The position numbers and the translations under genes were made by a program. DNA of 64,000 nt, from assembly GCF_900115225.1 (NCBI RefSeq), contig NZ_FOVR01000001.1:533727-597726 (forward strand). The letters run 5' to 3'. The notes under the pieces are model-generated. The model was not told the DNA's origin. It searched no databases and worked only from the letters and a program-made list of their open reading frames with translations. Positions 37,627 to 58,117 of the stretch are shown piece by piece; positions within the stretch are counted from its first letter, which is position 1; the number at the start of each line of letters is the position of its first letter. The stretch is from Cohaesibacter marisflavi (lineage in GTDB: Bacteria > Pseudomonadota > Alphaproteobacteria > Rhizobiales > Cohaesibacteraceae).

Positions 37627-38253
37627 TTAGTGGCAGATGCCGAACAAAAGCAGCTCTTTGACGGCCTGCTTGGTTTCTTCCCATTGTGCATCATTAAGAT
37701 CACTGCCCTCATTGAGGGTGGAGATCTGGTGCTTGAAATCTGCATAATGCTGGGTGGTCGCCCAGATGGTGAAAAGCAGATGCTTTGGGCTGATCGGGCG
37801 AATCTTTCCCGCCGCGATCCATTTGTGAATGACGTTGACGCGCTCTTCCGTCCAGGAGCGTAGCTCTGTTTCCAGATAGTCCTGCACGATGGGGGCACCC
37901 TGAATGATCTCATTGGCCCAGACCATGGAGCCATAGGGACGCGTTCTGGCCAACTCCATCTTGGTGTCGATATAGCTGCCCAAAGCTTCTCTCGGATCGG
38001 CATCTTCCACGATCTCATCAGCTGCAGCACGCCACACATTGAAGATGTCCTCTACCACTGTTCGGTACAGTAACTCTTTGGTAGAAAAGTAATAAACGAC
38101 ATTCGACTTGGGGAGTCCGGCTTCTTCTGCTATACGACTTATGGATGCCCCGTTATATCCGAACTGCGCAAAAATTATTTCTGCAGCAGTCAATATATTT
38201 TCGATATTCTGCGCCCTGTTTTTTTTCTGCTTCGTGTATTGTTGGGGTCTCAT
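37627..38253 (-). CDS. TetR family regulator, RutR-like
   Basis: This 208-residue regulator has an N-terminal HTH (ILTAAEIIFAQFGYNGASISRIAEEAG, then NVVYYFSTKELL) and a C-terminal domain like RutR, the pyrimidine-sensing regulator. It diverges from a pyrimidine catabolism operon, which it likely represses until uracil or thymine (or a degradation product) is present. Confidence 0.82.
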   Translation of the reverse strand: MRPQQYTKQKKNRAQNIENILTAAEIIFAQFGYNGASISRIAEEAGLPKSNVVYYFSTKELLYRTVVEDIFNVWRAAADEIVEDADPREALGSYIDTKMELARTRPYGSMVWANEIIQGAPIVQDYLETELRSWTEERVNVIHKWIAAGKIRPISPKHLLFTIWATTQHYADFKHQISTLNEGSDLNDAQWEETKQAVKELLLFGICH

Positions 38254-38430
38254 GAACTTGCCTGTTTTGTTAGTCTGTGCGGGCGCTGTAGTTATTTGAA
38301 AAATTCAGAAGTATTTTTGATTGTCCTGTAGATAAAACTAAAAGTATCCAAAAATACCTGCTGCAATTTTTGACTTTTCTTGTTCGTTTTTTGAGCATTT
38401 GCATGAATGTTTGGCAAACACTCAAAAACC

Positions 38431-38467
38431 TGACCGATCGTGCAGGAAAAATATTGACCGATCGTGC
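38431..38467. repeat. Direct repeat, candidate TetR operator
   Basis: TGACCGATCGTGC occurs at 38431-38443 and again at 38455-38467, 24 bases apart on the same face of the helix. It lies in the 339-base gap between the TetR gene and mmsA, which contains no other gene. I propose it as the regulator binding site. Confidence 0.6.
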
Positions 38468-38592
38468 GGATAATGCAAGCGTTCTTACCACGAAAGAGGC
38501 GTTTGGCAAAAAAAATCGCAAAACAAAATGCAATCAGCCAAAAACGTTTCAAGGGGAATAGTGGGCTCAAACAGAGTTGAGGGGGGCGCGTG

Positions 38593-40083
<1,491 letters not shown>

Positions 40084-40216
40084 GGAGAGCGGCGGGGCCA
40101 TACGCTCCTGGTGTAAAGAAAAGACTATAAGCGCCTGAAATATAACCGGATAACCGGAAAGGGCGCGCTTCCAGAATTGCCCGTTGGGCGCAGTGAATTG
40201 ACAGGGGAACCAGATC

Positions 40217-41458
40217 ATGAAGAAGAATCTGCGAGTGGATGGAGACCGTCTTTGGCAGTCTCTGATGGATATGGCAAAAATCGGTCCTGGCGTTGCCGGT
40301 GGCAACAATCGCCAGACCCTGACCGATGAGGATGCCGAAGGACGCGCGCTGTTCAAACAGTGGTGCGATGATGCGGGCCTTACCATGGGCGTCGACAAGA
40401 TGGGCTCCATGTTCATGACCCGTCCGGGCACCGATCCGGATGCCTTGCCGGTCTATGTTGGCTCCCACCTTGATACCCAGCCGACGGGTGGCAAATATGA
40501 TGGCGTTCTTGGTGTGCTCTCCGCTCTGGAATTGGTGCGCATGCTCAATGACGCAGACATCAAGACCAAACATCCGATTTGTGTGGTCAACTGGGCCAAC
40601 GAAGAGGGCGGGCGCTTCTCCCCGCCGATGTTGGCCTCTGGTGTTTTTGCTGGTGTTCATTCGCTGGATTATGCCTATGGCCGCAAGGATCTGGAAGGCA
40701 AGACCTATGGCGAAGAATTGAAGCGCATCGATTGGGTCGGCGAAGAAGAAGTGGGCGCCCGCAAGATGCATGCCTATTTCGAATATCACATCGAGCAGGG
40801 GCCGATCCTCGAAGCCGAGGAAAAGGAAATCGGCGTTGTGACCCATTGTCAGGGGCTGTGGTGGCTTGAATTCACCTTGACTGGCAAGGAAGCGCACACA
40901 GGGTCCACCCCGATGGCCATGCGCGTCAATGCGGGCCTTGCCATGGCACGCATCTTCGAGATGGTGCAAGAGGTGACCATGGCCGCTCAGCCGAACGCTG
41001 TAGGTGGTGTGGGGCAGGTAACCTTCTCGCCAAACTCGCGCAACGTTTTGCCGGGCACCGTTACCTTTACGGTCGATATTCGCACGGTTGATATCGAAAA
41101 GCTCAATGGTATGCGTGATGCCATTAAGGAGAAGGCCGCTGTTATCTGCGAAGAGCTGGGCGTTGGCTGCTCGGTGGAACAGGTTGGCCAGTTCGATCCG
41201 GTGACCTTCGATCCAACCTTGGTGGATCGCGTACGCAACGCAGCCATCGATTTGGGCTATTCCCACATGGATATCGTCTCTGGGGCCGGTCATGACGCAT
41301 GCTGGGCTGCCAAAGTTGCGCCAGCTACCATGATTATGTGTCCTTGCGTCGATGGTCTTTCGCACAACGAAGCCGAAGATATCTCCAAGGAATGGGCCAC
41401 CGCCGGGGCCGATGTGCTTTTGCAGGCGGTTCTGGAAACAGCTGAGATCTCGGAATAA
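40217..41458 (+). CDS. Zn-dependent beta-ureidopropionase/N-carbamoylase family amidase
   Basis: This 413-residue M20-fold metal hydrolase has the ligands in VGSHLDTQPTGGKYDGVLG, NEEGGRFSP, EYHIEQGPILE and SGAGHD. In this context it most likely cleaves N-carbamoyl-beta-alanine or N-carbamoyl-beta-aminoisobutyrate, the product of dihydropyrimidinase. 133 bases after mmsA. Confidence 0.87.
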   Translation: MKKNLRVDGDRLWQSLMDMAKIGPGVAGGNNRQTLTDEDAEGRALFKQWCDDAGLTMGVDKMGSMFMTRPGTDPDALPVYVGSHLDTQPTGGKYDGVLGVLSALELVRMLNDADIKTKHPICVVNWANEEGGRFSPPMLASGVFAGVHSLDYAYGRKDLEGKTYGEELKRIDWVGEEEVGARKMHAYFEYHIEQGPILEAEEKEIGVVTHCQGLWWLEFTLTGKEAHTGSTPMAMRVNAGLAMARIFEMVQEVTMAAQPNAVGGVGQVTFSPNSRNVLPGTVTFTVDIRTVDIEKLNGMRDAIKEKAAVICEELGVGCSVEQVGQFDPVTFDPTLVDRVRNAAIDLGYSHMDIVSGAGHDACWAAKVAPATMIMCPCVDGLSHNEAEDISKEWATAGADVLLQAVLETAEISE

Positions 41459-41469
41459 GGAAGATGACC

Positions 41470-41724
41470 TTATCTACCAGACAGATCATACCGGTAGATA
41501 TTTGTGGTGCTGTCCTTCTGAACTGTTGGGCGAAGGATCTCTTGGTCTTTATCAGTCATGATGCTTCGCATCGCATTGCAGCATGCTGGTATTCGGTATT
41601 TCTTTCCCGCTCGCTCTGCCAAGTCGCTAGCGCGAATTTCGACAACGGAAATGCCTGCATTTTTGGCTTCTTTAAATATTTTACGAAGCTCCCGAAGGAA
41701 CAAGTACTTAATAGGTTCGCGCAT
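41470..41724 (-). CDS. Small unknown protein, antisense within the pyrimidine operon
   Basis: This 84-residue ORF starts with ATG at 41724. Its sequence looks like a genuine small protein family I recall seeing as hypothetical proteins: an amphipathic helix (LFLRELRKIFKEAKNAG), a VVEIRASDLAERAG strand-turn, a RIPACCNAMRSIM Cys-Cys helix and a C-terminal IYRYDL strand. It fills most of the 325-base gap between the amidase and dihydropyrimidinase genes, on the opposite strand. The overlapping plus-strand ORF (41464-41787) lacks these features. Function unknown. Confidence 0.5.
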   Translation of the reverse strand: MREPIKYLFLRELRKIFKEAKNAGISVVEIRASDLAERAGKKYRIPACCNAMRSIMTDKDQEILRPTVQKDSTTNIYRYDLSGR

Positions 41725-41783
41725 AGATCAATCCTCACAACACTAGGTTGTCTAAGGGTTGCATATCTAAAAGGGGAAAATCA

Positions 41784-43238
41784 ATGAGCAAAGTGATTAA
41801 AGGCGGCACGGTCGTTACCGCCGATCTGACTTATGAAGCCGATGTGAAAATCGAGGGCGGTGTCATCACCGAAATCGGTCCTGATCTTTCCGGCGATGAA
41901 ATTCTGGATGCGTCTGGTTGTTATGTGATGCCGGGCGGCATTGATCCGCATGTGCATTTGGAAATGCCTTTCATGGGCACCTATTCCGCCGATGACTTCG
42001 CCTCGGGCACGCGTGCTGCCGTTTCCGGCGGAACGACCATGGTGGTAGACTTCTGCTTGCCTGATCCGGGACAGAGCCTGATGGACGCCCTGATGCGCTG
42101 GGATAACAAATCCACCCTTGCTACATGCGATTATTCCTTCCACATGGCCATCACATGGTGGGGCGAGCAGGTCTTCAATGAAATGGAGACCGTCGTGCGT
42201 GAGAAGGGCATCAACACCTTCAAGCATTTCCTTGCCTATAAAGGCTCGTTGATGGTCAATGATGACGAGTTGTTCGCTTCGTTCCAGCGATGTGCCGAAC
42301 TGGGGGCTATGCCGCTGGTTCACGCTGAAAATGGAGATGTGGTTGCCTCCATGTCTGCCAAGCTGCTGGAAGAGGGCAATGTCGGACCAGAAGCCCATGC
42401 TTATTCCCGTCCGCCGGAAGTGGAAGGGGAAGCCACCAACCGCGCCATCATGCTGGCCGATATGGCAGGCGTCCCGCTCTATGTGGTGCATACCTCCTGC
42501 GAGCAGAGCCACGAAGCCATCCGCCGTGCCCGACAGAAAGGCATGCGCGTCTATGGTGAGCCGCTCATTCAGCATCTGACGCTTGATGAGAGCGAATATT
42601 TCGACAAGGACTGGGATCACGCCGCCCGTCGTGTGATGAGCCCGCCATTCCGCAACAAGATGCATCAGGATAGCCTCTGGGCAGGCTTGCAGGCCGGTTC
42701 TCTTTCCTGTGTGGCAACAGACCACTGCGCCTTTACAACCGATCAGAAGCGCTACGGCGTGGGTGATTTCACCAAGATCCCGAACGGCACCGGCGGCCTT
42801 GAAGATCGCCTGCCGATGCTTTGGACCTATGGTGTCGGCACCGGTCGTCTGACGATGAATGAGTTTGTTGCTGTCACCTCAACCAACATCGCCAAGATCC
42901 TCAATATGTACCCGAAGAAGGGCGCTATCCTTGTTGGGGCTGATGCCGATATCGTGGTTTGGGATCCCAAGCGCTCCAAAACCATCACCGCGGCCAATCA
43001 GGTATCCACCATCGATTACAGCGTCTTCGAAGGCAAGGAAGTCACTGGCCTGCCACGCTTCACCTTGTCGCGAGGCAAGGTGATGGTCGAGGAAAGCACA
43101 TTGAAGACTGAAGAGGGTCACGGCGAATTCGTAGCGCGCCAGCCTTACACGGCAGTCAACAAGGCGCTTTCCACCTGGAAGGAACTGGTTTCGCCGCGTC
43201 CGATCGCCCGCTCAGGCATTCCGCCAAGTGGCGTCTAA
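41784..43238 (+). CDS. Dihydropyrimidinase (D-hydantoinase)
   Basis: This 484-residue cyclic amidohydrolase has the HxH pair His56/His58, the lysine to be carboxylated (Lys153, FLAYKGS), His in VHAENGD, and ATDHCAF aspartate. It opens dihydrouracil or dihydrothymine to the N-carbamoyl-beta-amino acid, feeding the upstream amidase. ATG 41784 has AAGGGGAAAA upstream. Confidence 0.92.
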   Translation: MSKVIKGGTVVTADLTYEADVKIEGGVITEIGPDLSGDEILDASGCYVMPGGIDPHVHLEMPFMGTYSADDFASGTRAAVSGGTTMVVDFCLPDPGQSLMDALMRWDNKSTLATCDYSFHMAITWWGEQVFNEMETVVREKGINTFKHFLAYKGSLMVNDDELFASFQRCAELGAMPLVHAENGDVVASMSAKLLEEGNVGPEAHAYSRPPEVEGEATNRAIMLADMAGVPLYVVHTSCEQSHEAIRRARQKGMRVYGEPLIQHLTLDESEYFDKDWDHAARRVMSPPFRNKMHQDSLWAGLQAGSLSCVATDHCAFTTDQKRYGVGDFTKIPNGTGGLEDRLPMLWTYGVGTGRLTMNEFVAVTSTNIAKILNMYPKKGAILVGADADIVVWDPKRSKTITAANQVSTIDYSVFEGKEVTGLPRFTLSRGKVMVEESTLKTEEGHGEFVARQPYTAVNKALSTWKELVSPRPIARSGIPPSGV

Positions 43239-43272
43239 GCGTAGCTCTGACGCACGCTGAGTCAACAAATAG

Positions 43273-43299
43273 CCTGCGGGTGCCTTATGCGTCCGCAGG
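43273..43299 (+). promoter_or_regulatory. Intercistronic hairpin
   Basis: CCTGCGG pairs with CCGCAGG around a 13-base loop, between the dihydropyrimidinase stop and the ABC transporter. No T run; it may tune downstream expression. Confidence 0.5.
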
Positions 43300-43351
43300 A
43301 TAGATTGAAGAATGACGATAACAAGCATACTCCGAACGGGAACAAGCAACG

Positions 43352-44152
43352 ATGATGCACTCCGACTTCCATGTGGTCTCAGCCAAAGACCTCTGTCTGA
43401 CCTTTCAGACCAATGATGGGCCGGTCCATGCGCTCAAGGATGTCAATTTACAAATAGACAAGGGCGATTTTGTCAGTTTCATTGGCCCGTCCGGCTGTGG
43501 CAAGACAACCTTTTTGCGTGCCATCGCTGCTTTGGAAAATCCCACCTCCGGCGAGCTGACGGTGAATGGTACGACGCCCGAACTGGCGCGAAAAGACCGC
43601 GCCTACGGCTATGTGTTTCAGGCCGCTGGCCTCTACCCATGGCGCACGATTGCGCGCAACATCAAATTGCCCCTTGAGATCATGGGCTTCACCAGAGCCG
43701 AGCAGAATGAGCGGGTCGAAAGGGTGCTCAAGCTGGTGGATCTGGAAGGCTTTGGCAACAAGTTCCCATGGCAGCTTTCCGGCGGCATGCAGCAGCGCGC
43801 CTCCATTGCGCGCGCACTGTCATTCGATGCTGATATCCTGCTGATGGATGAACCCTTCGGGGCATTGGACGAGATCGTACGAGACCATCTCAACGAACAG
43901 CTTCTCAAGCTCTGGTCGAGCACGGGCAAGACCATCGGCTTTGTGACCCATTCCATTCCAGAGGCTGTTTATCTTTCTACCAAGATTGTTGTCATGAGCC
44001 CACGTCCGGGCCGTATCACGGATGTCATCGAGAGCACGCTTCCCAAGGACCGCCCGCTTTCCATCCGTGACAGTCAGGAATTCATCGACATTGCCCATCG
44101 CGTGCGCGAGGGCCTGAGAGCCGGTCATGGCGATGGAGCGAATGATGCGTAA
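43352..44152 (+). CDS. ABC importer ATPase, NitT/TauT/THI5 type
   Basis: This 266-residue ATPase has Walker A GPSGCGKTT, signature LSGGMQQRASIARAL and Walker B ILLMDEPFGALDE. Family NitT/TauT, with two permease genes directly after it. Likely imports a pyrimidine or related heterocycle given the operon. Its end overlaps the first permease gene. Confidence 0.88.
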   Translation: MMHSDFHVVSAKDLCLTFQTNDGPVHALKDVNLQIDKGDFVSFIGPSGCGKTTFLRAIAALENPTSGELTVNGTTPELARKDRAYGYVFQAAGLYPWRTIARNIKLPLEIMGFTRAEQNERVERVLKLVDLEGFGNKFPWQLSGGMQQRASIARALSFDADILLMDEPFGALDEIVRDHLNEQLLKLWSSTGKTIGFVTHSIPEAVYLSTKIVVMSPRPGRITDVIESTLPKDRPLSIRDSQEFIDIAHRVREGLRAGHGDGANDA

Positions 44153-45008
44153 GCTGTTTGCTGTTTTCACTGTCGTTCTGGTCATCGTAGCGATCTGGTA
44201 TGCCGCCGCAGTGAAGATGAACGCCAAATGGGCCTATGATCAGGCCGCCCGCGCAAAGGTCGAGATCTCTTTCTCGGAGCTGGTCAAAGACACCTGGGCG
44301 CAGGAGCGTCCGGTTCTGCCAGCGCCGCATCAGGTGATGACCGAGCTCTGGAAAACCACGGTTGGCAAGAAGATCACCTCCAAGCGGTCTCTTATTTTTC
44401 ATGGCTGGATCACGCTCGAGGCAACCCTGCTGGGCTTTATCACTGGCACGTTGCTGGGCATCGCGCTTTCGGTTGGCATCATCTATATCCGCGCCATGGA
44501 TATGAGCGTCATGCCATGGGCCATTGCCTCCCAGACCGTGCCCATTCTGGCCATCGCACCGATGATCATCGTCGTGCTCAACTCGGTCGGCATTCAGGGC
44601 TTGATCCCCAAGGCGATTATCTCGGCCTATTTGAGCTTCTTCCCCGTGCTGGTGGGCATGGTGAAAGGCTTGCGCGCGCCCGATCATATGCAGATGGATT
44701 TGCTCAAGACTTACAATGCCTCCAAGAGCGACGCCTTCTACAAGCTGCGCCTGCCGTCTTCAGTGCCTTATCTTTTCACCTCCATGAAGGTGGGTATAGC
44801 GGCCTCGCTGGTCGGTACCATCGTGGGTGAATTGCCAACCGGTGCGATCCGCGGACTGGGTGCACGTCTTTTGACAGGGTCCTATTATGGCCAGACCATC
44901 CAGATGTGGGCAGCACTGTTCGCCGCAGCTCTGCTGGCAGCCGGCCTTGTGGCGCTCGTCGGATTGGCTGAGAAATCTGTTCTGAAGAAAATGGGGATGG
45001 TGCGATGA
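44142..45008 (+). CDS. ABC importer permease 1
   Basis: This 288-residue polytopic permease has the EAA-type cytoplasmic loop (YNASKSDAFYKLRLPSSVPYLFTSMKVGI). Start at 44142 (ATGATG, GGAG upstream) overlaps the ATPase stop. One of two unlike permeases forming a heterodimer. Confidence 0.86.
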   Translation: MMRKLFAVFTVVLVIVAIWYAAAVKMNAKWAYDQAARAKVEISFSELVKDTWAQERPVLPAPHQVMTELWKTTVGKKITSKRSLIFHGWITLEATLLGFITGTLLGIALSVGIIYIRAMDMSVMPWAIASQTVPILAIAPMIIVVLNSVGIQGLIPKAIISAYLSFFPVLVGMVKGLRAPDHMQMDLLKTYNASKSDAFYKLRLPSSVPYLFTSMKVGIAASLVGTIVGELPTGAIRGLGARLLTGSYYGQTIQMWAALFAAALLAAGLVALVGLAEKSVLKKMGMVR

Positions 45009-45850
45009 CCCTGGTGTTCGCTGCAATTGTCATCTGGATCGTGGCTTCCTGGATCAATGTGAAGCTGTCCCGATCCTCGGCCCATAACACGCTTCTGGTG
45101 CGGTTTCTGGTGCCCTTTATTTTCGGCGTCACTATCATCGTGGCGTGGGAACTGCTGGCTCGTGGACTAGACATCCCGTCGGTCATCCTGCCGCCGCCAT
45201 CGGCCATCGCCACGCGCTTTGCCGCATCCACCGACATTCTTTGGCTGGATTTCGTGCAGACCTTCGTCAAGGGTGCGCTGACCGGTTATATCATGGGCTG
45301 CGGAGCGGCCTTCCTGACAGCGATCCTGATCGACCGTGTGCCTTTCTTGCAGCTTGGCCTGCTGCCGGTTGGCAACTTCGTGGCCGCGTTGCCCATTGTT
45401 GGTATTGCGCCAATCCTTGTCATGTGGTTCGGCTTTGACTGGCATTCCAAGGCAGCCGTGGTCGTGGTGATGGTCTTCTTCCCCATGCTGGTCAACTGCG
45501 TGCAGGGGCTCTCGGATACAGACAGCATGCAGCGCGACCTCATGAAGACCTATGCGGCGAGTTACGCCGATACATTGCTCAAACTGCGCCTGCCAGCGGC
45601 GATGCCATTCATTTTCAATGGTCTGAAAATTTCGACGACCTCGGCGCTCATCGGCGCGATTGTGGCTGAATTCTTTGGCTCTCCGATTGTCGGTATGGGA
45701 TTTCGTATCTCAACCGAAGTCGGCAAGCTCGGGCTCGATATGGTCTGGGCAGAAATTACGGTTGCGGCCATCGCTGGCTCTCTTTTCTACGGAGCTGTGG
45801 CCGCAATCGAAAAAGGGGTGACCTTCTGGCATCCCTCTCAAAGGGGCTAA
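45005..45850 (+). CDS. ABC importer permease 2
   Basis: This 281-residue polytopic permease is paralogous to permease 1, with the loop YAASYADTLLKLRLPAAMPFIFNGLKIS. It overlaps permease 1 by four bases (ATGA). Confidence 0.87.
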   Translation: MTLVFAAIVIWIVASWINVKLSRSSAHNTLLVRFLVPFIFGVTIIVAWELLARGLDIPSVILPPPSAIATRFAASTDILWLDFVQTFVKGALTGYIMGCGAAFLTAILIDRVPFLQLGLLPVGNFVAALPIVGIAPILVMWFGFDWHSKAAVVVVMVFFPMLVNCVQGLSDTDSMQRDLMKTYAASYADTLLKLRLPAAMPFIFNGLKISTTSALIGAIVAEFFGSPIVGMGFRISTEVGKLGLDMVWAEITVAAIAGSLFYGAVAAIEKGVTFWHPSQRG

Positions 45851-45925
45851 AAGACCCCATTTAATAACCTAAGAAAAGCAACACCTTAACCAAAATCCTT
45901 AATGGAACACCAAAGGGAATAGAAG

Positions 45926-46927
45926 ATGAGAGACACTTTCAAGACTTTTGCGATTGGCGCATGTGCAGCTGCCTCGATCTTTGCAGCCACCGGAGCCAAC
46001 GCGGCAGATGACTTTACCCTTCAGCTCAAATGGGTGACCCAGGCCCAGTTTGCCGGCTATTATGTTGCGCTGGAAAAGGGCTTCTATGAAGAAGAAGACC
46101 TCAATGTCACCATCAAGCCGGGCGGTCCGGATATTGCTCCCACGCAGATCCTTGCTGGTGGCGGTGCTGATGTCGTGGTTGACTGGATGCCATCCGCTCT
46201 GGCTGCTCGCGAAAAGGGCCTGCCGCTGGTGAACATCGCTCAGCCTTACAAATCCTCCGGCATGATGCTGACTTGCCTTAAGGAAAGCGGCGTTAAAACC
46301 CCTGAAGACTTCCCGGGCAAAACCCTTGGTGTCTGGTTCTTCGGCAACGAATATCCATTCCTCAGCTGGATGAGTATTCTGGGCATTCCCACCGAAGGCG
46401 GTGATGATGGCGTAACCGTCCTCAAGCAGGGCTTCAACGTCGATCCTCTGCTCCAGAAACAGGCTTCCTGTATCTCCACCATGACCTACAACGAATATTG
46501 GCAGGTGATTGATGCTGGCATCTCTGAAGATGAACTGATCACTTTCAAGTATGAAGATCAGGGCGTTGCAACGCTGGAAGACGGTCTCTATGTGCTCGAA
46601 GATAAGCTGGCTGACGATGCCGAAGTCGACAAACTGGCCCGCTTCGTGAAAGCCTCCATGAAAGGCTGGAAATGGGCAGAATCCAATCCCGATGAAGCGG
46701 CCGATATCGTTCTGGAATATGACGAAACAGGTGCCCAGACCGAAAAGCACCAGAAGCGTATGATGGCCGAAGTTGCCAAGCTGACCGCAGGCTCCAACGG
46801 CGCTCTTGATCCGGCCGACTATGAGCGCACCGTCAAGACCCTGATGAGCGGTGGTTCTGCTCCGGTTATCTCCAAGGCACCAGAAGGCGCCTGGACCCAC
46901 AAGATTACTGATCTGGCTCTGAAGTAA
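45926..46927 (+). CDS. ABC importer periplasmic binding protein, NMT1/THI5-like
   Basis: This 333-residue protein has a signal peptide (about 1-26, ending GANA) and an NMT1/THI5-like fold (LQLKWVTQAQFAGYYVALEKGFY). This family includes proteins that bind thiamine-pyrimidine precursors and riboflavin. In a pyrimidine-catabolism operon the ligand may be a pyrimidine; a flavin or thiazole precursor cannot be excluded. Confidence 0.85.
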   Translation: MRDTFKTFAIGACAAASIFAATGANAADDFTLQLKWVTQAQFAGYYVALEKGFYEEEDLNVTIKPGGPDIAPTQILAGGGADVVVDWMPSALAAREKGLPLVNIAQPYKSSGMMLTCLKESGVKTPEDFPGKTLGVWFFGNEYPFLSWMSILGIPTEGGDDGVTVLKQGFNVDPLLQKQASCISTMTYNEYWQVIDAGISEDELITFKYEDQGVATLEDGLYVLEDKLADDAEVDKLARFVKASMKGWKWAESNPDEAADIVLEYDETGAQTEKHQKRMMAEVAKLTAGSNGALDPADYERTVKTLMSGGSAPVISKAPEGAWTHKITDLALK

Positions 46928-46958
46928 GCCAGCTCAGCAATAAAGTGGTCTGACTTGA

Positions 46959-46987
46959 TCCGCATCCGGGTTTGTCTCGGATGCGGA
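46959..46987 (+). promoter_or_regulatory. Hairpin between the transporter and F420 genes
   Basis: TCCGCATCCG pairs perfectly with CGGATGCGGA around a 9-base loop. No T run. It lies in a 226-base gap before cofG that contains no gene; a small CAGGG/CCCTG hairpin also lies at 47096-47112. These are the only visible structures. Confidence 0.55.
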
Positions 46988-47153
46988 GAGAGTGAGCCCC
47001 AAAGGCACCGAACAATAAAAGACATCTGATACCGCGCAGGCTTTCCGGGGCATCTGGACCGGATTTGTGCGAACAGGACCGCTTTGTCTCAATTTCAGGG
47101 CTGGTAACCCTGTCAGGAGATTGTTCGAAACAGTTTGATTTTTCAAAAAGGGC

Positions 47154-48365
47154 ATGTGCGACAAGATGCTGGTACAGAGTGAACGCAACAGTCGATCTCA
47201 TGAGGTTTATGGGGCCCTCTCAACGGGAACCCGTGAGCTTTATGATGAAGCGCGATATCTGCAAAAGGCCGATCTGGAAAGCCTGATGGCGCGAGCCTGT
47301 GTCATTCGTGAGGCGCGTTGGGGCCGCACCGTGACCTATTCGCGCAAGGCTTTTGTTCCGCTCACCAACATGTGCCGGGATACCTGCGCCTACTGCACCT
47401 TTGTCAAGCATCCCGACCATCCCGACGCCAATATCATGTCGCCCGAACAGGTGCTGGCAACGGCACGCAAAGGTGAGGCGCAAGGCTGCAAGGAATTGCT
47501 CTTCAGCTTGGGAGAAAAGCCCGAATTGCGCTATGAGCGCGCAAGGGCTGCACTCTCTCTGCTGGGCTATGACAGCATGACCGACTATCTGGCGGACATG
47601 TGCGCGCTGGTGCTGGAAGAAACCACCATGCTGCCCCACGTCAATGCGGGCACGCTCAGCGATGAAGAATTGGAAAAGCTGCGCCCGGTTTCCGCTTCCA
47701 TGGGCATGATGCTCGAAACCATCTCCCGCCGTCTGACGCAAAAGGGCGAGGCGCATTATGCCTGTCCGGACAAAGTGCCCTTGCAGCGTCTGCGTACGCT
47801 GGAGAGGGCAGGGGAACGCAAGGTGCCCTTTACCACCGGCTTGCTCATCGGTATCGGCGAAACATGGGAAGAGCGCATAGAGGCACTCCACGCCATCAAT
47901 GAGAGTCACAAGCGCCACGGTCACATTCAGGAAGTCATTATCCAGAATTTCCAGACCAAACCAGATATCGCCATGGCGCACCATAAGGAACCCAGCCTTG
48001 AGGATATGCTCAGAACCATCGCTGCCGCTCGGCTCATTCTGTCGCCCGATATCAGCTTGCAGGCGCCACCAAATCTTAGCGCCCGCCACATCGCCTATCT
48101 CGATGCAGGTATCAACGACTGGGGTGGCATCTCACCCGTGACGATCGATTTCATCAATCCCCAGCATGTCTGGCCGCAAATCGATGTCTTGGCCGAGAGC
48201 TGCAAAAGCGCTGGCTTTGCGCTCAAGGAACGCCTTCCCATTTATCCCGACTATTTGAAACGGGGCTCCGCATTTTTAAGCCCTCAACTGCAAGACCGCG
48301 TCGCTGCAATGGCTGCACGCGACGGTCTGGCTCAAGAACAACGACACCTGATGCAGGGAGAATAA
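47154..48365 (+). CDS. cofG: F420 biosynthesis: FO synthase subunit CofG
   Basis: This 403-residue radical SAM enzyme has CRDTCAYC (Cys74/78/81). With CofH it makes FO (7,8-didemethyl-8-hydroxy-5-deazariboflavin) from a riboflavin precursor and tyrosine. AAAAAGGG precedes the ATG. First gene of the cofGHDCE-npdG set. Confidence 0.9.
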   Translation: MCDKMLVQSERNSRSHEVYGALSTGTRELYDEARYLQKADLESLMARACVIREARWGRTVTYSRKAFVPLTNMCRDTCAYCTFVKHPDHPDANIMSPEQVLATARKGEAQGCKELLFSLGEKPELRYERARAALSLLGYDSMTDYLADMCALVLEETTMLPHVNAGTLSDEELEKLRPVSASMGMMLETISRRLTQKGEAHYACPDKVPLQRLRTLERAGERKVPFTTGLLIGIGETWEERIEALHAINESHKRHGHIQEVIIQNFQTKPDIAMAHHKEPSLEDMLRTIAAARLILSPDISLQAPPNLSARHIAYLDAGINDWGGISPVTIDFINPQHVWPQIDVLAESCKSAGFALKERLPIYPDYLKRGSAFLSPQLQDRVAAMAARDGLAQEQRHLMQGE

Positions 48366-48369
48366 GATC

Positions 48370-49647
48370 ATGACCAATGAAATAGTAAATTATATTGAGA
48401 ATGATATTGAGATTGATGCGTCTGCTATCTCCCATCCCGTCAGAGATGTTCTTGATAAGGCATTGGAAGGGCGTGAGATTACGCAAATGGAGGCTGTCAC
48501 GCTGTTCAAGGCAAATGGGCATGCCGACAAGCAGGCGATCTATCACACCGCGGATCTGTTGCGCCAAAAAGCCAATGGTGATCTGGTGACCTTTGCCGTC
48601 AACCGGAACATCAATTTCACCAATGTCTGCTACATGGGGTGCAAGTTCTGCAACTTTGCCAAACGCGCCGACGAAGAAGATGCCCAATGGCACTCGGTGG
48701 AAGAGGTGCTACGCCGCTGCCATGAGGCCTGGGACCGTGGCGCGACCGAAGTCTGCATTCAGGGTGGGCTCCACCCCAAGCTTCCCGGCACCTATTATGA
48801 AGAGCTCTGCCGCGCCATCAAGGCCGAGCTCCCGGATATGCATCTTCATGCTTTCTCGCCCTTTGAAGTCTGGTATGGCGCATCGAAAAGCCGCAAGCCT
48901 TACCGAGAGTTTCTGCAAGGGCTTAAAGATGCCGGTCTGGGCACCATGCCGGGCACGGCCGCTGAAATTCTTGATACCGAGATCCGCAAACAGCTGACCA
49001 AGGACAAGCTCAGCACGGAGAAATGGGTCGAGATCATCCGCACCGCTCATGAGGTTGGCATCAAGACAACTGCCACCATCATGTATGGCCATATCGACGC
49101 GCCGGAGCATTGGGCTGCACATATCGATCTGCTGCGATCCATCCAGAAAGATACCGGCGGCTTTACCGAATTTGTGCCGCTGTCCTATCAGCATGTGGGC
49201 ACCGCTCTCTATTCCGAAAATCCGGGCAAGGTGCGCATGGGGCCGAGCACGGACGAAATCGACAAGATGCATGCGGTTTCCCGCATCATGCTGCATGGGT
49301 TCATTGACAATATTCAGGTGTCCTGGACCAAATTGGGACCAGACCATGCCATGGCCATGCTCAACCGCGGCGCCAATGACATGGGCGGCACCTTGATGGA
49401 AGAGAGCATCTCACGCGCCGCAGGCGCTGATCATGGGCAAGAGATCACCGCCTATGAGCTGACGCAGATCGTACGAGCGTCGGGGCGCACGCCAGCGCGC
49501 CGCTCAAGCGATTATCGTATTCTGGATATTTACGACGATCATGACCCGCAACCGCTCGCACCGCTGATCGAGCGGGGTGACAAAGATCCTCTCGACTTCC
49601 TCAAGATGTTCCCAGATGCCTCTTCGGGTCTGGAGGCGGCCGAATGA
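48370..49647 (+). CDS. cofH: F420 biosynthesis: FO synthase subunit CofH
   Basis: This 425-residue radical SAM enzyme has CYMGCKFC (Cys87/91/94). It starts four bases after cofG and overlaps cofD by four. The two subunits are separate genes here rather than the fused FbiC of actinobacteria. Confidence 0.92.
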   Translation: MTNEIVNYIENDIEIDASAISHPVRDVLDKALEGREITQMEAVTLFKANGHADKQAIYHTADLLRQKANGDLVTFAVNRNINFTNVCYMGCKFCNFAKRADEEDAQWHSVEEVLRRCHEAWDRGATEVCIQGGLHPKLPGTYYEELCRAIKAELPDMHLHAFSPFEVWYGASKSRKPYREFLQGLKDAGLGTMPGTAAEILDTEIRKQLTKDKLSTEKWVEIIRTAHEVGIKTTATIMYGHIDAPEHWAAHIDLLRSIQKDTGGFTEFVPLSYQHVGTALYSENPGKVRMGPSTDEIDKMHAVSRIMLHGFIDNIQVSWTKLGPDHAMAMLNRGANDMGGTLMEESISRAAGADHGQEITAYELTQIVRASGRTPARRSSDYRILDIYDDHDPQPLAPLIERGDKDPLDFLKMFPDASSGLEAAE

Positions 49648-50612
49648 GCGAGAAACAGAAGCTAAAGGTTACCCTGCTGGCCGGCGGGGTCGGCGGGGCG
49701 AAGATGGCCGAAGGCTTTGCTTCGCTGGAGGACGTCGATCTCACTATCATCGGCAACGTGGCTGATGATGAGGCGTTTCACGGTCTGTGGGTATCACCGG
49801 ATATCGACACCATGACCTATACCCTCTCGGGCAGGATCAACCGTCAGCAGGGCTGGGGGCTGGCGGACGAAGGCACACGCGCGCTAGAGACTCTGACAAG
49901 CTTGGGCGAAGATACATGGATGATGTTGGGGGACAGGGATTTCGGCCTGCATATCTACCGCACCATGCGCAGAATGAAGGGGGATAGGCCGAGCGATATC
50001 GCCGCCGATGTGGCCAAGGCCTTCGGCGTCAAATCCAAAATCCTGCTGCCAACCAACGATGTGGTTCAAACGCGGGTCAAGACGGAACAGGGTTGGCTCA
50101 GTTTCCAGGAATATTTCGTCAAGGAAAAATGCGCCCCCGCTGTCAAGGCGCTGGAATTTGCTGGTATCGAAGAGGCGAGCGCAACACTTGAAGCTCTGGA
50201 AGCCATTGCGAGCGCAGAACTGCTGGTCATTGCACCCTCAAACCCGCTGGTCAGCATCGAACCGATCCTTGCCATCAAGGGCATTCGCGAGGCCTTGAAA
50301 AAGCGTGCAGTGCCGTCCATCGCTGTCAGTCCGCTAATTGCCGGAAAGGTGGTCAAGGGACCTGCTGACAGAATGATGAGCGCTCTGGGGATGCGCGCAG
50401 ACGCTGTTGGTGTGGCCACCCGCTATCAGGGGCTTGCCGATATCTTGCTGATTGATCATCAGGATGTGGCTCTGTCCGCAGAGATCTTGGACCTTTCCAT
50501 CGCGCCTCACTGCTCGGACATCATGATGAAGGATATGTCTGACAAGATGCGGCTCGCCTCGGAGATTGTCGACCTCGCCAGAGCTCAAGGGCAGAATGGA
50601 GCGGCGGCATGA
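49644..50612 (+). CDS. cofD: 2-phospho-L-lactate transferase CofD
   Basis: This 322-residue transferase has the N-terminal LAGGVGGAKMAEG loop and a DDEAFHGLWVSPDIDT segment. It attaches the phospholactyl (or phosphoenolpyruvyl/3-phosphoglyceryl) group to FO, giving F420-0 or dehydro-F420-0. Overlaps cofC by four bases. Confidence 0.93.
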   Translation: MSEKQKLKVTLLAGGVGGAKMAEGFASLEDVDLTIIGNVADDEAFHGLWVSPDIDTMTYTLSGRINRQQGWGLADEGTRALETLTSLGEDTWMMLGDRDFGLHIYRTMRRMKGDRPSDIAADVAKAFGVKSKILLPTNDVVQTRVKTEQGWLSFQEYFVKEKCAPAVKALEFAGIEEASATLEALEAIASAELLVIAPSNPLVSIEPILAIKGIREALKKRAVPSIAVSPLIAGKVVKGPADRMMSALGMRADAVGVATRYQGLADILLIDHQDVALSAEILDLSIAPHCSDIMMKDMSDKMRLASEIVDLARAQGQNGAAA

Positions 50613-51268
50613 GCGAAAGAACGCTGGTTCTCATTCCCATGAAGGCACCCACGCAAGCCAAGTCACGCCTCAAAACTGTGTTGAGCGATAGGGAGCGCTC
50701 GGCTTTGGCTCTGGCTTTGTTCAAGGGTGTTGTGGCGCAAGTCATGGGGGCCGTCCAAAGCATCAAAAAGGCTGGCAATCCTCACAAGGTCATTGACATC
50801 GCGGTCGTCTCGAGCAGCAAGACTATCGAAGACATCGCCGCTGACCTCGGGATCATCTATCTGGCGGAAGAGGCTGGAGCCGGTCTGGTCGCTGCGGTGG
50901 AAGAAGCTGCGGCAAAGGCCAGTTGGCGCGGCTATAAGCGCCTGTGCATTCTTCCCGGTGATCTAGCCGACCCATCGGCTTCAGACATTATGCGGCTGCT
51001 TTCATATCCGGTAGACGAGGGGACGATAGCCCTCTGTCCGTCGCAGGATTTGGGGACAAATGCGTTGGTCGTAACCCTGCCAAGCCCCATGCCTTTTGCC
51101 TTCGGACCAGAGTCATTCACACGACATTTCAGTCTGGCTGCGGACCGTGGGCTTATGCCTGTCATATTACCGCTCAAGAGCCTGCGGCGGGATATCGATA
51201 CGCTGGCCGATCTGGATTATCTCGATGACAACCGGACGATAGGTATCATGAACAGGGAGGAAGCATGA
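50609..51268 (+). CDS. cofC: 2-phospho-L-lactate (or PEP) guanylyltransferase CofC
   Basis: This 219-residue nucleotidyltransferase opens with LVLIPMKAPTQAKSRLKTVLSD, the guanylyltransferase signature, and has a CILPGDLADPSASDI metal-binding stretch. Makes the GDP-activated three-carbon unit for CofD. Overlaps cofD and cofE. Confidence 0.91.
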   Translation: MSERTLVLIPMKAPTQAKSRLKTVLSDRERSALALALFKGVVAQVMGAVQSIKKAGNPHKVIDIAVVSSSKTIEDIAADLGIIYLAEEAGAGLVAAVEEAAAKASWRGYKRLCILPGDLADPSASDIMRLLSYPVDEGTIALCPSQDLGTNALVVTLPSPMPFAFGPESFTRHFSLAADRGLMPVILPLKSLRRDIDTLADLDYLDDNRTIGIMNREEA

Positions 51269-52050
51269 GCGATAGCATGGCGTCTTCTCTTTGCATCACT
51301 GCCATCCCCAATGTGCCCGATATTGTCGAGGGCGACGATCTGGCGGCGATTGTCGGCGATTGCCTTGTGGCAAGCGGACATATGCCCGTTGAAGGAGACA
51401 TTCTTTGCGTAGCGCAAAAGATCTTTTCCAAAGCTGAAGGCTGTATCTATCCGCTTTCGACCATTACGCCATCGCCCGAAGCATTGCGTTACGCCGAAGA
51501 GCTGGGCAAGGACCCGCGCAAGGTGGAAATCGTGCTGCGGGAAAGCGCCGAAGTTGTGCGTGCCTTCCGCCACCCCGGTCAGAGTGAAGGCACCATGATT
51601 TGCCGCCACAGGCTGGGCTTCATTTCCGCTAATGCTGCCGTCGATGAATCCAACATTGCCGAAACGGATGCCGCCATGACGCTGCCGCCGGACCCCGACG
51701 CGAGCGTGGTTGCCATGCGGGACGCGCTGGAAGCTCGCTTCGGCTGTCGCATTGGTGTGGTGATGACAGACACCTTTGGTAGGCCTTGGCGCATCGCGCA
51801 GGTCAATGTGGCCATAGGGCTGGCTGGTGTGCCTGCCACCTTGCGTGAGCAGGGCAACGAAGATGCATGGGGCCGCACAATGAAAGTGACTGAGGCGGCC
51901 TTTGCTGATGAGCTGGCAGCTGCCTCCGGTCTCGTGGTCAAGAAGGCTGCAAAAACACCCCTCGTTTTGTTCCGTGGGCTCGACTGGAGCCCGTCCCGGA
52001 GCAAGGCCGAGGATCTGTTGAGAGGAAAACAAGAGGATATGTTCAGATGA
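51265..52050 (+). CDS. cofE: Coenzyme F420-0:L-glutamate ligase CofE
   Basis: This 261-residue GTP-dependent ligase has the opening [20 protein letters not shown] and the [20 protein letters not shown] core. It adds the glutamates. It is a stand-alone CofE, not fused to the reductase domain of FbiB, which is not seen in the window. Confidence 0.92.
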
Positions 52051-52715
52051 CGATCGCAATCATTGGCGGCACAGGGCCGCAAGGGCAGGGGCTTGCCTTG
52101 AGATTTGCGCGCGCCGGTGTGCCAGTGGCTCTGGGCTCGCGTGATGCCACGCGTGCCGCGGAAATCGGCGTTGCCCTGCGCGCGCAGTTGGACGCCGCCG
52201 CCGCTCCAATTACGGGTGTTGCGAACGAGGAAGCCGTTATGATGGCTGATGAGTTGGTCATTCTCGCGGTGCCCTTTGCTGGCCACAACGCCACGCTGGC
52301 AGCGCTCAAGCCGCATCTGGAAGGCAAGATCCTTGTCGATATCGTCGTGCCTCTGAAAGAGGGCGACCCGAAAAAGGTCGAGATGCCGCCCGAAGGCTCG
52401 GCGACAGAAGCAGCCCAAGCGCTGCTTGGCCCGGATATTCCCGTCGTCGGGGCCTTGCACAATGTGTCCGCAACCACGCTGAAGACCCTCGAATGGGATA
52501 TCAACTGCGATATTCTTGTGTGTGGCAATTCGCTTCCCGCCCGCAAGAAGGTCATGGCGCTGGTCGAGACGCTCGGTGTCGTCGCTTACAATGCTGGCGA
52601 CGCTGAAGCTGCTCGCTGCATCGAGGCGATCACGCCCATTCTCATTCGCATCAATATTTCCAAGCAGGTGCCCTTCACCCATGCCGGTGTGAAGATTCAG
52701 GCCCCGGCTCACTGA
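52047..52715 (+). CDS. npdG: F420H2:NADP oxidoreductase NpdG
   Basis: This 222-residue Rossmann protein opens with [21 protein letters not shown] (binding NADP) and has the NPDG/Fno pattern. It reduces F420 with NADPH. It overlaps cofE by four bases, so cofactor production and reduction are co-made. Confidence 0.92.
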
Positions 52716-52778
52716 TAAACAGAACAATCACCAAACCGACCTTTGAAAAGACTTGAAGAACAAGGACAGGAGAGAGAG

Positions 52779-53783
52779 ATGGAATTCGGTATTTGCTTTA
52801 AAGGCTTCGTCGAGCCCAAGCGTGCCCGCGCCCTTGTGCGACAGGCCGAGAACGCCGGCTTTACCTATTGCTGGTTTTACGATAGCCACATCCTTTGGCG
52901 CGAAAGCTACATGGCGATGGCCATGTGCATGGAGCACACGACCAAAATGCGCTTCGGTCCATGCGTGACCAATCCGAACACCCGTGACTGGTCGCTTGCT
53001 GCTTCGATGTTTGGCTCTCTTGCCAAGCAGTCGGAAGGCCGGTTCGACATTGGCCTTGGCCGAGGCGATAGCGCAGTGCGTGTCATGGGGCTCAAGCCCG
53101 CACCGCTGAAGCGTCTGGAAGAATTCACCCATGTGGTCAAGGCCTTGGTGCGCGGTGACGAAGCGCAATATGGCGAATGCCCCGAGCCGGTCAAATTTCC
53201 TTGGGCTGAGGGTTATGAACTGCCAATCTGGGTGGCTGCCTATGGTCCAAAAGCGTTAAGCTCCGCCGGACGGGTTGGGGATGGTCTCATCCTGCAGATC
53301 GCCGAGCCAAGCATTGTCAAATGGCTGGCAAGCACGGCCATCGCAGAGGGCGAAAAAGCTGGCCGCGACATGTCCAACTTCAAGGTCATGTCCGCCGCGC
53401 CAGCCTATTTCGGCACGAAGGAAGAATGCATCGCCGCAACCCGCTGGTTCCCTGCCATGGTGGGCAACCATGTGGCTGACATCGTTGAGAAATACGGCAC
53501 AGAGCGGGACGATATCCCCGAAGCGCTCACCGCCTATATCAAGGACCGAAAGGGCTATGACTATTCTAAGCATGGCCAGAGCGATAATCCGTATCTTGAT
53601 TTCATTACTGATGAAATTATTGAGGGCTTCAGTGTTCTGGGCGCTGCCGAGCAACATATCGCCAAGCTTGGTGTTTTGAAGGACGCGGGCGTCACCCAGT
53701 TCAATATCTACCTGGACAACGGTAAGGAAGAACAGATCATCGCTGAATATGGCGAGAAGATCATCCCAGCTTTTGAGGCCTGA
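52779..53783 (+). CDS. F420-dependent luciferase-like oxidoreductase (Mer-like)
   Basis: This 334-residue (alpha/beta)8-barrel protein of the luciferase-like monooxygenase superfamily resembles methylenetetrahydromethanopterin reductase and belongs to the proteobacterial F420-dependent group I recall as the CPS_4043 type. Cues: GICFKGFVEPKRARALVRQAENAGF, FGPCVTNPNTRDWSLAASMFGSLA and FDIGLGRGDSAVRVMGLKP. Substrate unknown. Its place at the end of the F420 genes and the pyrimidine set suggests it reduces or oxidises a pyrimidine-pathway compound. AGGAGAG precedes the ATG. Confidence 0.85.
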   Translation: MEFGICFKGFVEPKRARALVRQAENAGFTYCWFYDSHILWRESYMAMAMCMEHTTKMRFGPCVTNPNTRDWSLAASMFGSLAKQSEGRFDIGLGRGDSAVRVMGLKPAPLKRLEEFTHVVKALVRGDEAQYGECPEPVKFPWAEGYELPIWVAAYGPKALSSAGRVGDGLILQIAEPSIVKWLASTAIAEGEKAGRDMSNFKVMSAAPAYFGTKEECIAATRWFPAMVGNHVADIVEKYGTERDDIPEALTAYIKDRKGYDYSKHGQSDNPYLDFITDEIIEGFSVLGAAEQHIAKLGVLKDAGVTQFNIYLDNGKEEQIIAEYGEKIIPAFEA

Positions 53784-53913: not shown

Positions 53914-54408
53914 TCAGGCGTGCAGATTCTCATGCCCTTTGGTGGTATCGACCAGCTTGGCTTTCTGCTCGAACCCATCGTCTTTGGTCAGTTCGGCGAC
54001 ATGCAGCAGGGTCGTCATGATCCGTTCGCGCTCAGTGTCGGGTAGATCGAAATAATGCCTTGCAAATGTGTCCCCCAGCGGCGAAGGCGCCTGCTCCAGA
54101 AGGGCTTTTCCTGCATCGGTTAGGGTTGAGATCACCACGCGGCGATTGTTTGCGGGCCGAATACGCTCGATAAGCCCTTTTGCGGCCAGTTTGTCAAGAA
54201 TACCCAGTACGGTCGGCGGTGACAGATCGACCTGTTTCGATATGGCACTCCCTGTGGGGTCTCCCAAATCGCGCACACAGCGCAGAATGATGAGTTGGGG
54301 CAGGGTCAGCCCGCTTTTCTTGTTCAAGAAGCGGGAATGGATATCAAGGGCTCTGGCGATCGTGCGGATGGATTGGAGCACGACACGCATTTCTTCATTC
54401 GGCGTCAT
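53914..54408 (-). CDS. MarR family transcriptional regulator
   Basis: This 164-residue regulator has the winged HTH (TGSAISKQVDLSPPTVLGILDKLAAKGLIERIRPANNRRVVISTLTD). It diverges from the NAGGN operon and is convergent with the F420 operon. It probably controls the osmolyte operon from the 111-base intergenic region. Confidence 0.85.
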   Translation of the reverse strand: MTPNEEMRVVLQSIRTIARALDIHSRFLNKKSGLTLPQLIILRCVRDLGDPTGSAISKQVDLSPPTVLGILDKLAAKGLIERIRPANNRRVVISTLTDAGKALLEQAPSPLGDTFARHYFDLPDTERERIMTTLLHVAELTKDDGFEQKAKLVDTTKGHENLHA

Positions 54409-54519
54409 TTTTACTATCTATTTTTTGATGGAACCAAATTTTGTCCAAACTGTTGTATATTAAAGATTAGTGTACTAATAATTACTAGTCAAACAATCAG
54501 AAGGAGAATGATAGAGCTT

Positions 54520-56295: not shown

Positions 56296-56299
56296 GGCC

Positions 56300-58084: not shown

Positions 58085-58117
58085 CCGAAGGTTTGAGCAA
58101 TGGAAAGAGCGTGAGTG

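Follow-up and report, generated by a model that had tools for sequence, protein, structure and literature searches.

A gene block joining F420 synthesis to pyrimidine catabolism in Cohaesibacter marisflavi suggests a deazaflavin-dependent first step

How might a bacterium reduce uracil or thymine, the first step of reductive pyrimidine breakdown, if PreT-PreA is missing? The question is raised by a 64,000-nucleotide stretch of the genome of Cohaesibacter marisflavi (contig NZ_FOVR01000001.1 of assembly GCF_900115225.1; the whole stretch is called the window here). A block of 15 genes at 37.6-53.8 kb of the window, as counted from open frames, has 14 genes on the plus strand and one, encoding a RutR-like regulator, divergent from them. 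It brings together genes for pyrimidine catabolism, an importer, synthesis of the rare deazaflavin coenzyme F420, the NADPH-dependent F420 reductase NpdG, and an oxidoreductase of the luciferase-like monooxygenase (LLM) class. An initial annotation of this DNA proposed that NADPH, NpdG and the LLM could provide the missing reduction through F420H2, and comparative genomics supports that proposal. We put at roughly three in four the probability that the block encodes reductive pyrimidine catabolism with the NAD(P)H-dependent PreT-PreA enzyme replaced by a two-protein deazaflavin relay, NpdG and the LLM. On sequence comparison, the block is best read as a variant of the reductive pyrimidine pathway that is new in form.

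In the proposed route, the importer would take up a pyrimidine base, NpdG would pass a hydride from NADPH to F420, and the LLM would move it from F420H2 onto uracil or thymine, probably at C6 of the ring, giving dihydrouracil or dihydrothymine. Dihydropyrimidinase, followed by an M20-family hydrolase, would then yield beta-alanine or beta-aminoisobutyrate. A transamination would come next (none of the genes in the block was recognised as an aminotransferase), and methylmalonate/malonate-semialdehyde dehydrogenase (MMSDH) would finally produce acetyl- or propionyl-CoA. The F420 for the LLM step would be supplied by CofG, CofH, CofD, CofC and CofE. The data establish the gene identities, their linkage and co-occurrence, the depletion of PreA, the interchange of reductases and, for part of the loci, a common operator; the reaction, its substrate, F420 as the carrier and the position that receives the hydride are inferred.

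The first step in the window's genome

The initial annotation saw no PreT or PreA gene in the window, and there is none among the open frames of the block. A search with the PreA model, a check which that annotation had itself called for, widens this result to the whole genome (98.47% complete), in which nothing passed the cut-off (here and throughout, the curated NCBIfam value), the best match reaching 141.7 bits against 335. RutA, the enzyme of the Rut pathway that acts on uracil, belongs like the LLM to the luciferase family, but it is an oxidative FMN monooxygenase, and nothing in the genome passes its cut-off. A RutA-type oxidation as the first step was rejected on the score of the best match, 25.2 bits against 498.3.

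The LLM scores over the cut-off of TIGR03842 (F420_CPS_4043; Table 1). The solved chains closest to it by sequence, in an alignment of near full length, are those of methylene-tetrahydromethanopterin reductase (Mer; 8qq8, 8qpl and 1z69), which carries out F420H2-dependent hydride transfer. Despite this nearness, the protein falls far below the two Mer equivalog cut-offs (124.5 against 348.7 bits and 127 against 276 bits). Use of F420 by the LLM is suggested indirectly, by the presence of CofD in every one of the 55 LLM-bearing genomes described below.

Distribution of the LLM and its exchange with PreT-PreA

The association recurs beyond the window, with nearly the same gene set present in a genome of another class. 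All genome searches were confined to the phylum of the window's organism, and the cross-tables behind the Fisher and tree-paired tests were compiled by hand from per-gene genome lists and, on a recount, had margins that agreed with the list totals. In the phylum sample, a single genome of 398, besides the window's own, has the LLM at an E value of 1e-80 or better, and this is the genome of another class. Its locus holds a dihydropyrimidinase (52% identical to that of the window), an M20 hydrolase (44%) and the LLM (73%), together with RutR-like, CofG-H-D-C-E and NpdG genes, an NCS1-like permease (330.7 bits, short of the 353.1 cut-off) and, about 1.2 kb further on the opposite strand, MMSDH. 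In Paracoccus denitrificans DSM 413 the LLM-cof set adjoins dihydropyrimidinase, M20 and an NCS1 permease that passes its cut-off, and a genome search found no PreA over cut-off.

Within the class sample, the LLM passes its cut-off in 6 of 385 genomes, including the window's own. The family sample consisted of 248 genomes from the family of Thalassovita autumnalis (L100/G410), a species that was itself picked as an LLM genome. Here the LLM is over cut-off in 12 genomes and CofD occurs in the same 12 (10 over cut-off and two just under), while PreA is found in 206 and dihydropyrimidinase in 220 of the 248. PreA is depleted in LLM genomes: it occurs in 3 of the 12 with the LLM, as against 203 of the 236 without it (Fisher p 7.8e-6, relatedness ignored), and, when only dihydropyrimidinase-bearing genomes are counted, in 3 of 11 as against 195 of 209 (Fisher p 4e-7, again ignoring relatedness). 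Dihydropyrimidinase is present in 198 of the 206 PreA-positive genomes, in eight of the nine that have the LLM and no PreA, and in 14 of the 33 that have neither (p 0.022 for the last two groups). The survey of LLM co-occurrence that the initial annotation had suggested therefore comes out in its favour, with LLM and CofD in the same genomes and PreA scarce among them. A further set of 55 LLM genomes, 50 from the loci described next (picked for isolates and long contigs) and five from the class sample, the window's own included, has CofD over cut-off in 52, and dihydropyrimidinase occurs in 54.

For the neighbourhoods of the LLM gene we used the best 80 of 461 relatives, obtained with an alignment of seven LLMs as query, so that distant members are unrepresented. 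Locus contents were determined by BLAST under identity limits of our own setting, the queries being the fifteen proteins of the block together with PreT, PreA and three more. NpdG was found in 72 loci, CofE in 70 and CofD in 68; dihydropyrimidinase (36 loci), M20 (32) and a RutR-like gene (31) are less frequent, and no locus has PreA. Among the 60 loci that span 16.5 kb or more, NpdG occurs in 54 and dihydropyrimidinase in 31. Six of the 80 are without CofD, CofE or NpdG, and in each of four genomes searched (L067, L078, L082 and L108) CofD lies elsewhere. By their record titles, all but one of the loci come from groups that we take to be alphaproteobacterial. The odd one, L080, is labelled Nocardioides marinus, and its LLM locus resembles those found in Rhodobacteraceae; the label looks wrong, because its genome (G397) was drawn from the family of Thalassovita. 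Two others, L125 (Roseibium aggregatum) and L105 (a metagenome-assembled genome labelled Rhodobacteraceae), have a different-looking cof set and a second, distant LLM opposite the window-type LLM, and the cof set of L125 includes an 832-aa CofG-like frame.

The proposal that the LLM takes the place of PreTA is supported by the operons beside which the two occur, which are homologous M20-dihydropyrimidinase-importer operons. Among 20 fetched genomes with PreA and no LLM, the PreA locus includes M20 in 16 and dihydropyrimidinase in 17; both are present in all 11 PreA loci from genomes that have PreA and the LLM together, and the typical order is PreT-PreA-RutR-M20-dihydropyrimidinase-ABC-substrate-binding protein (SBP). 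In one such reductive (Pyd/PreTA) operon, that of Thalassovita autumnalis (L162), the M20 hydrolase is 69%, the dihydropyrimidinase 64%, the importer parts 67-81% (SBP 80%) and the RutR-like regulator 41% identical to those of the window. The proposed order of reactions is the same as in the Pyd/PreTA pathway; the window's genome, however, has no PreA over cut-off and has instead the LLM-fold F420-type protein, NpdG and F420 synthesis. In seven genomes with the LLM and no PreA, fetched for a dihydropyrimidinase located apart from the LLM, this gene is accompanied by M20, ABC ATPase and SBP in all seven and by a RutR-like gene in six. PreTA is absent from these operons because the genomes were PreA-negative already; what is new is the persistence of the remaining operon genes. 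The LLM stands directly 5' of M20 in L063 and L042, and MMSDH or an omega-aminotransferase lies within some M20-dihydropyrimidinase operons. On a quick dihydropyrimidinase tree of 80 sequences (SH-aLRT support only, with 26 of 76 inner branches starred), the label of the linked reductase, LLM in 32 rows and PreTA in 28, changes at least seven times.

A partly shared operator provides a separate connection. The binding site of RutR is a palindrome some 16 bp long. We scored a single consensus, TTGACCAnnTGGTCAA, which we take to be that of E. coli RutR, over the stretch between positions -300 and +30 relative to each gene start, with a threshold of at least 12 of 14 matches. Boxes at this level precede cofG in 13 of 46 loci and M20 in 25 of 74, compared with 14 of 989 other frames, these controls being stop-to-stop frames of at least 150 aa and not curated genes. 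They are absent before CofH (0/48), CofD (0/64), CofE (0/63), dihydropyrimidinase (0/81) and PreA (0/31), and rare before NpdG (1/68), LLM (2/82), SBP (2/57) and PreT (1/29). None of 920 shuffled cofG stretches reached the threshold. The cofG box has a Fisher p of 6e-12 at 12 matches and 2e-8 at 13, values that overstate the case because the loci are related and one record occurs twice (L090 and L198, both under 12). In nine of the 13 box-bearing cofG loci neither dihydropyrimidinase nor M20 is seen, L077 among these nine being on a short contig, so that for most of them the box does not simply come with an adjacent catabolic operon. In the genome G430, one box, of 14 matches, stands before cofG (L101) and another, of 12 matches, before the M20 gene in a separate operon (L199). 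Before PreT a box of 10 or 11 matches occurs in 27 of 29 cases, a level that has no background count. In part of the loci, F420 synthesis is thus apparently co-regulated with pyrimidine breakdown.

Objections, alternatives and precedents

A number of observations weigh against a simple replacement of PreT-PreA by the deazaflavin relay. PreA is over cut-off in 17 of the 55 LLM genomes, and dihydropyrimidinase was not seen in 29 of the 60 long LLM loci. In one genome, G258 (L043; 2.2 Mb, 98% complete), which has a full F420 set and an LLM 75% identical to that of the window, no dihydropyrimidinase rises above the limit. The Fisher counts take no account of relatedness, and an independent-pairs test on the 55 tree rows with both traits, rows picked partly by PreA status, gave the expected direction and no significance. 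Pairing by LLM produced nine pairs; averaged over pairings, PreA differs in the opposite direction in 4.9 of them and in the same direction in 1.2 (median p 0.22), and with the traits exchanged there were eight pairs, at 4.4 versus 1.0 (median p 0.38); the Fisher values therefore stand uncorrected. Seven were fetched of the 14 family genomes that have dihydropyrimidinase and neither reductase, and in all seven M20, dihydropyrimidinase and ABC ATPase stand together without PreTA or LLM, so that PreTA loss is not always matched by the LLM. At the operator, 33 of the 46 cofG loci fall short of 12 matches, and the window itself has no RutR-type palindrome near 38.3-38.6 kb (regulator) or 47.1 kb (cofG).

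Side observations attach to two of these points. Among the operons with neither reductase, L208, L210 and L211 lie on contigs of less than 12 kb. L206, L207, L209, L210 and L212 are M20-dihydropyrimidinase-ABC-SBP operons from genomes without PreA or LLM over the limits, and in five neither-reductase operons the flanking frames, viewed by eye, include no evident replacement reductase; in L212 a frame resembling, by eye, a flavin/NAD oxidoreductase adjoins the RutR-like gene. In the window, a 13-base direct repeat, TGACCGATCGTGC, occurs in two copies, at 38431 and 38455, between the RutR-like gene and MMSDH, and this pair is a possible operator.

Other roles for the LLM were weighed against the same data. 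It may be an F420H2-dependent reductase of a related ring, such as a 5-substituted pyrimidine, a hydantoin-like or a purine-derived compound, that feeds the same two hydrolases beside uracil reduction. The 17 genomes with both PreA and the LLM keep such a use possible, and 16 of them have two or more matches to the dihydropyrimidinase model, as against 12 of the 38 LLM genomes without PreA. Two parallel routes may therefore exist in the former, and some of the multiple matches may be other hydantoinases. NCS1 proteins of the loci also match allantoin-permease models, below cut-off, and a purine pathway of Chloroflexota, discussed below, has been proposed to use a protein of the F420-type luciferase family (PMC12507026). 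We nevertheless consider this reading unlikely: LLM genomes are depleted of PreA, PreT-PreA sits in a homologous operon whose SBP is 80% identical to that of the window, the linked reductase switches at least seven times on the dihydropyrimidinase tree, and the MMSDH or omega-aminotransferase of some operons is what beta-alanine or aminoisobutyrate as product would lead one to expect. Very unlikely, in our view, is a role for the LLM at another step of the pathway (e.g., on the semialdehyde) or in general F420 metabolism, with the operon taking up dihydropyrimidines and having no first enzyme. Complete-looking M20-dihydropyrimidinase operons in genomes with neither reductase, and the one LLM genome without dihydropyrimidinase, would fit that role, but it leaves both the depletion of PreA and the interchange of LLM and PreTA unexplained. 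A neighbourhood devoid of any functional link would suit the 29 long loci in which dihydropyrimidinase is not seen alongside the LLM; we give it next to no credence, since the linkage recurs in several genera and a second class, and the operator is shared at some loci whose catabolic genes lie outside the locus.

The window's own genome offers one further candidate, and we judge it most unlikely: a class 1B-type dihydroorotate dehydrogenase and PyrK-like pair on contig C19 could reduce uracil while the LLM does something else. The dehydrogenase, a 314-aa protein, is the best PreA-model match noted above, and the pair adjoins an M20 hydrolase, a phosphopentomutase and a uridine-phosphorylase-like gene. 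The protein is, however, over the dihydroorotate dehydrogenase cut-off and far under that of PreA, of whose 422 model positions it covers only 1-318, and as a uracil reductase it was set aside; its PyrK-like partner is below its own cut-offs. A match of this kind occurs in only 3 of the 55 LLM genomes (E 3.5e-41 to 6.3e-36). In Pseudovibrio exalbescens, a 74%-identical dihydroorotate dehydrogenase and its partner adjoin PyrC and PyrE, both over cut-off, near frames that by eye resemble a TRAP transporter, and these neighbours make a role in orotate use the simpler reading of the C19 pair. Dihydroorotate dehydrogenase, PyrK-like and M20 genes are grouped in both L039 (the C19 locus, C19:694500-714400) and L163 (the Pseudovibrio locus). 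An ABC importer is also among the neighbours in L039, and this grouping may be a cluster for the use of orotate that includes a ureidosuccinase.

The two-protein relay of NpdG and the LLM has partial precedents. Clostridium chromiireducens is reported to have a ferredoxin-dependent PydA variant, PydAc, so a swap of electron donor at the first Pyd step is already known in another form; PydAc is a PydA homologue, whereas the LLM comes from another family (PMC7332683). In uric-acid clusters of Chloroflexota, an F420-dependent luciferase-family protein was proposed from its neighbourhood as yanthine reductase. It is a PF00296 protein that stands where other phyla have YgfK or UacX, often in clusters with the hydantoinase HyuA. 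That case concerns a purine pathway in another phylum (PMC12507026). The role of F420 in Alphaproteobacteria is left open in a further study, according to which predicted alphaproteobacterial producers encode Fgd besides Fno; this would allow further roles for F420 (PMC8498797). Among the open-access matches listed (titles and opening lines, with preprints outside), we recognised none that joins F420 to pyrimidine catabolism in this form, and the initial annotation likewise knew of no such pathway.

With less assurance than for the block itself, although we lean toward it, we suggest a wider conclusion. F420 may serve mainly nucleobase breakdown in a group of Alphaproteobacteria (Cohaesibacter, Pseudovibrio, SAR116, several Rhodobacteraceae and Paracoccus denitrificans) and in one or more genomes from another proteobacterial class, with its synthesis genes in the pyrimidine (RutR-type) regulon in part of the genomes. 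The LLM would then be the first F420H2-dependent nucleobase reductase, evolutionarily interchangeable with the iron-sulphur flavoprotein PreTA. If so, there would be a reason why these bacteria make F420, and its alphaproteobacterial role would become concrete enough to test in Paracoccus denitrificans DSM 413, which is in culture; a low F420 content without an inducing pyrimidine would fit. A large iron-sulphur flavoprotein would also have been exchanged repeatedly with a small deazaflavin enzyme.

The genes of the block

The gene set named in the initial annotation is real, with its open frames at or near the places assigned to them and ten passing NCBIfam cut-offs (Table 1), all five F420 synthesis genes among them. 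The F420 and pyrimidine genes, described there as fused, are merely adjacent, with no gene fusion. Each of CofH, CofD, CofC, CofE and NpdG shares 4 bases with its neighbours, a pattern that fits a transcription unit. For dihydropyrimidinase and the LLM, the true starts probably differ from those of the longest open frames; the LLM start used here, 52779, is the one given in the initial annotation.

Table 1. Genes of the block, in window positions, with profile matches
Feature	Position	Strand	Match
RutR-like TetR-family regulator, divergent from catabolic genes	37627..38253	-	Pfam TetR_C_3 164.8 bits; TIGR03613 RutR 193 bits
CoA-acylating MMSDH	38590..40083	+	TIGR01722 705 bits, cut-off 448.5
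M20-family amidohydrolase, proposed beta-ureidopropionase	40217..41458	+	NF006769 680 bits, cut-off 452
Dihydropyrimidinase	41787..43238 (longest frame from 41748)	+	TIGR02033 595 bits, cut-off 393
ABC importer ATPase	43352..44152	+	Pfam ABC_tran
ABC importer permease 1	44127..45008	+	Pfam BPD_transp_1
ABC importer permease 2	45005..45850	+	Pfam BPD_transp_1
NMT1/THI5-type SBP	45926..46927	+	Pfam NMT1
CofG, FO synthase subunit	47154..48365	+	TIGR03550 468 bits, cut-off 213
CofH, FO synthase subunit	48370..49647	+	TIGR03551 488 bits, cut-off 374
CofD	49644..50612	+	TIGR01819 277.9 bits, cut-off 257.45
CofC	50609..51268	+	TIGR03552 131.7 bits, cut-off 105
CofE	51265..52050	+	TIGR01916 223.2 bits, cut-off 180.65
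NpdG, NADPH-dependent F420 reductase	52047..52715	+	TIGR01915 181.5 bits, cut-off 149.8
LLM-class F420-type oxidoreductase, proposed F420H2:uracil/thymine reductase	52779..53783 (longest frame from 52743)	+	TIGR03842 501 bits, cut-off 295

The regulator falls short of the RutR equivalog cut-off of 368 bits, and the label RutR-like that it was given at the outset suits it, although by the model it is not RutR. The importer had been called pyrimidine-type: an importer with an NMT1/THI5-type SBP is present, but none of the NCBIfam models listed for its four proteins is over cut-off, and for that reason we leave its ligand unnamed. For the M20 hydrolase, two chains of N-carbamoyl-L-amino-acid hydrolase (8apz, 756 bits, and 8aq0, 748 bits) outscore that of N-carbamoyl-beta-alanine amidohydrolase (8c46, 733 bits), and the NCBIfam label is allantoate amidohydrolase. 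The nearest solved chain to the dihydropyrimidinase is itself a dihydropyrimidinase (3dc8, 944 bits). On the 3' side of the block, at 54295-59290 of the window, lie genes for the osmoprotectant NAGGN (amidotransferase, synthetase and M42 peptidase), all over cut-off.

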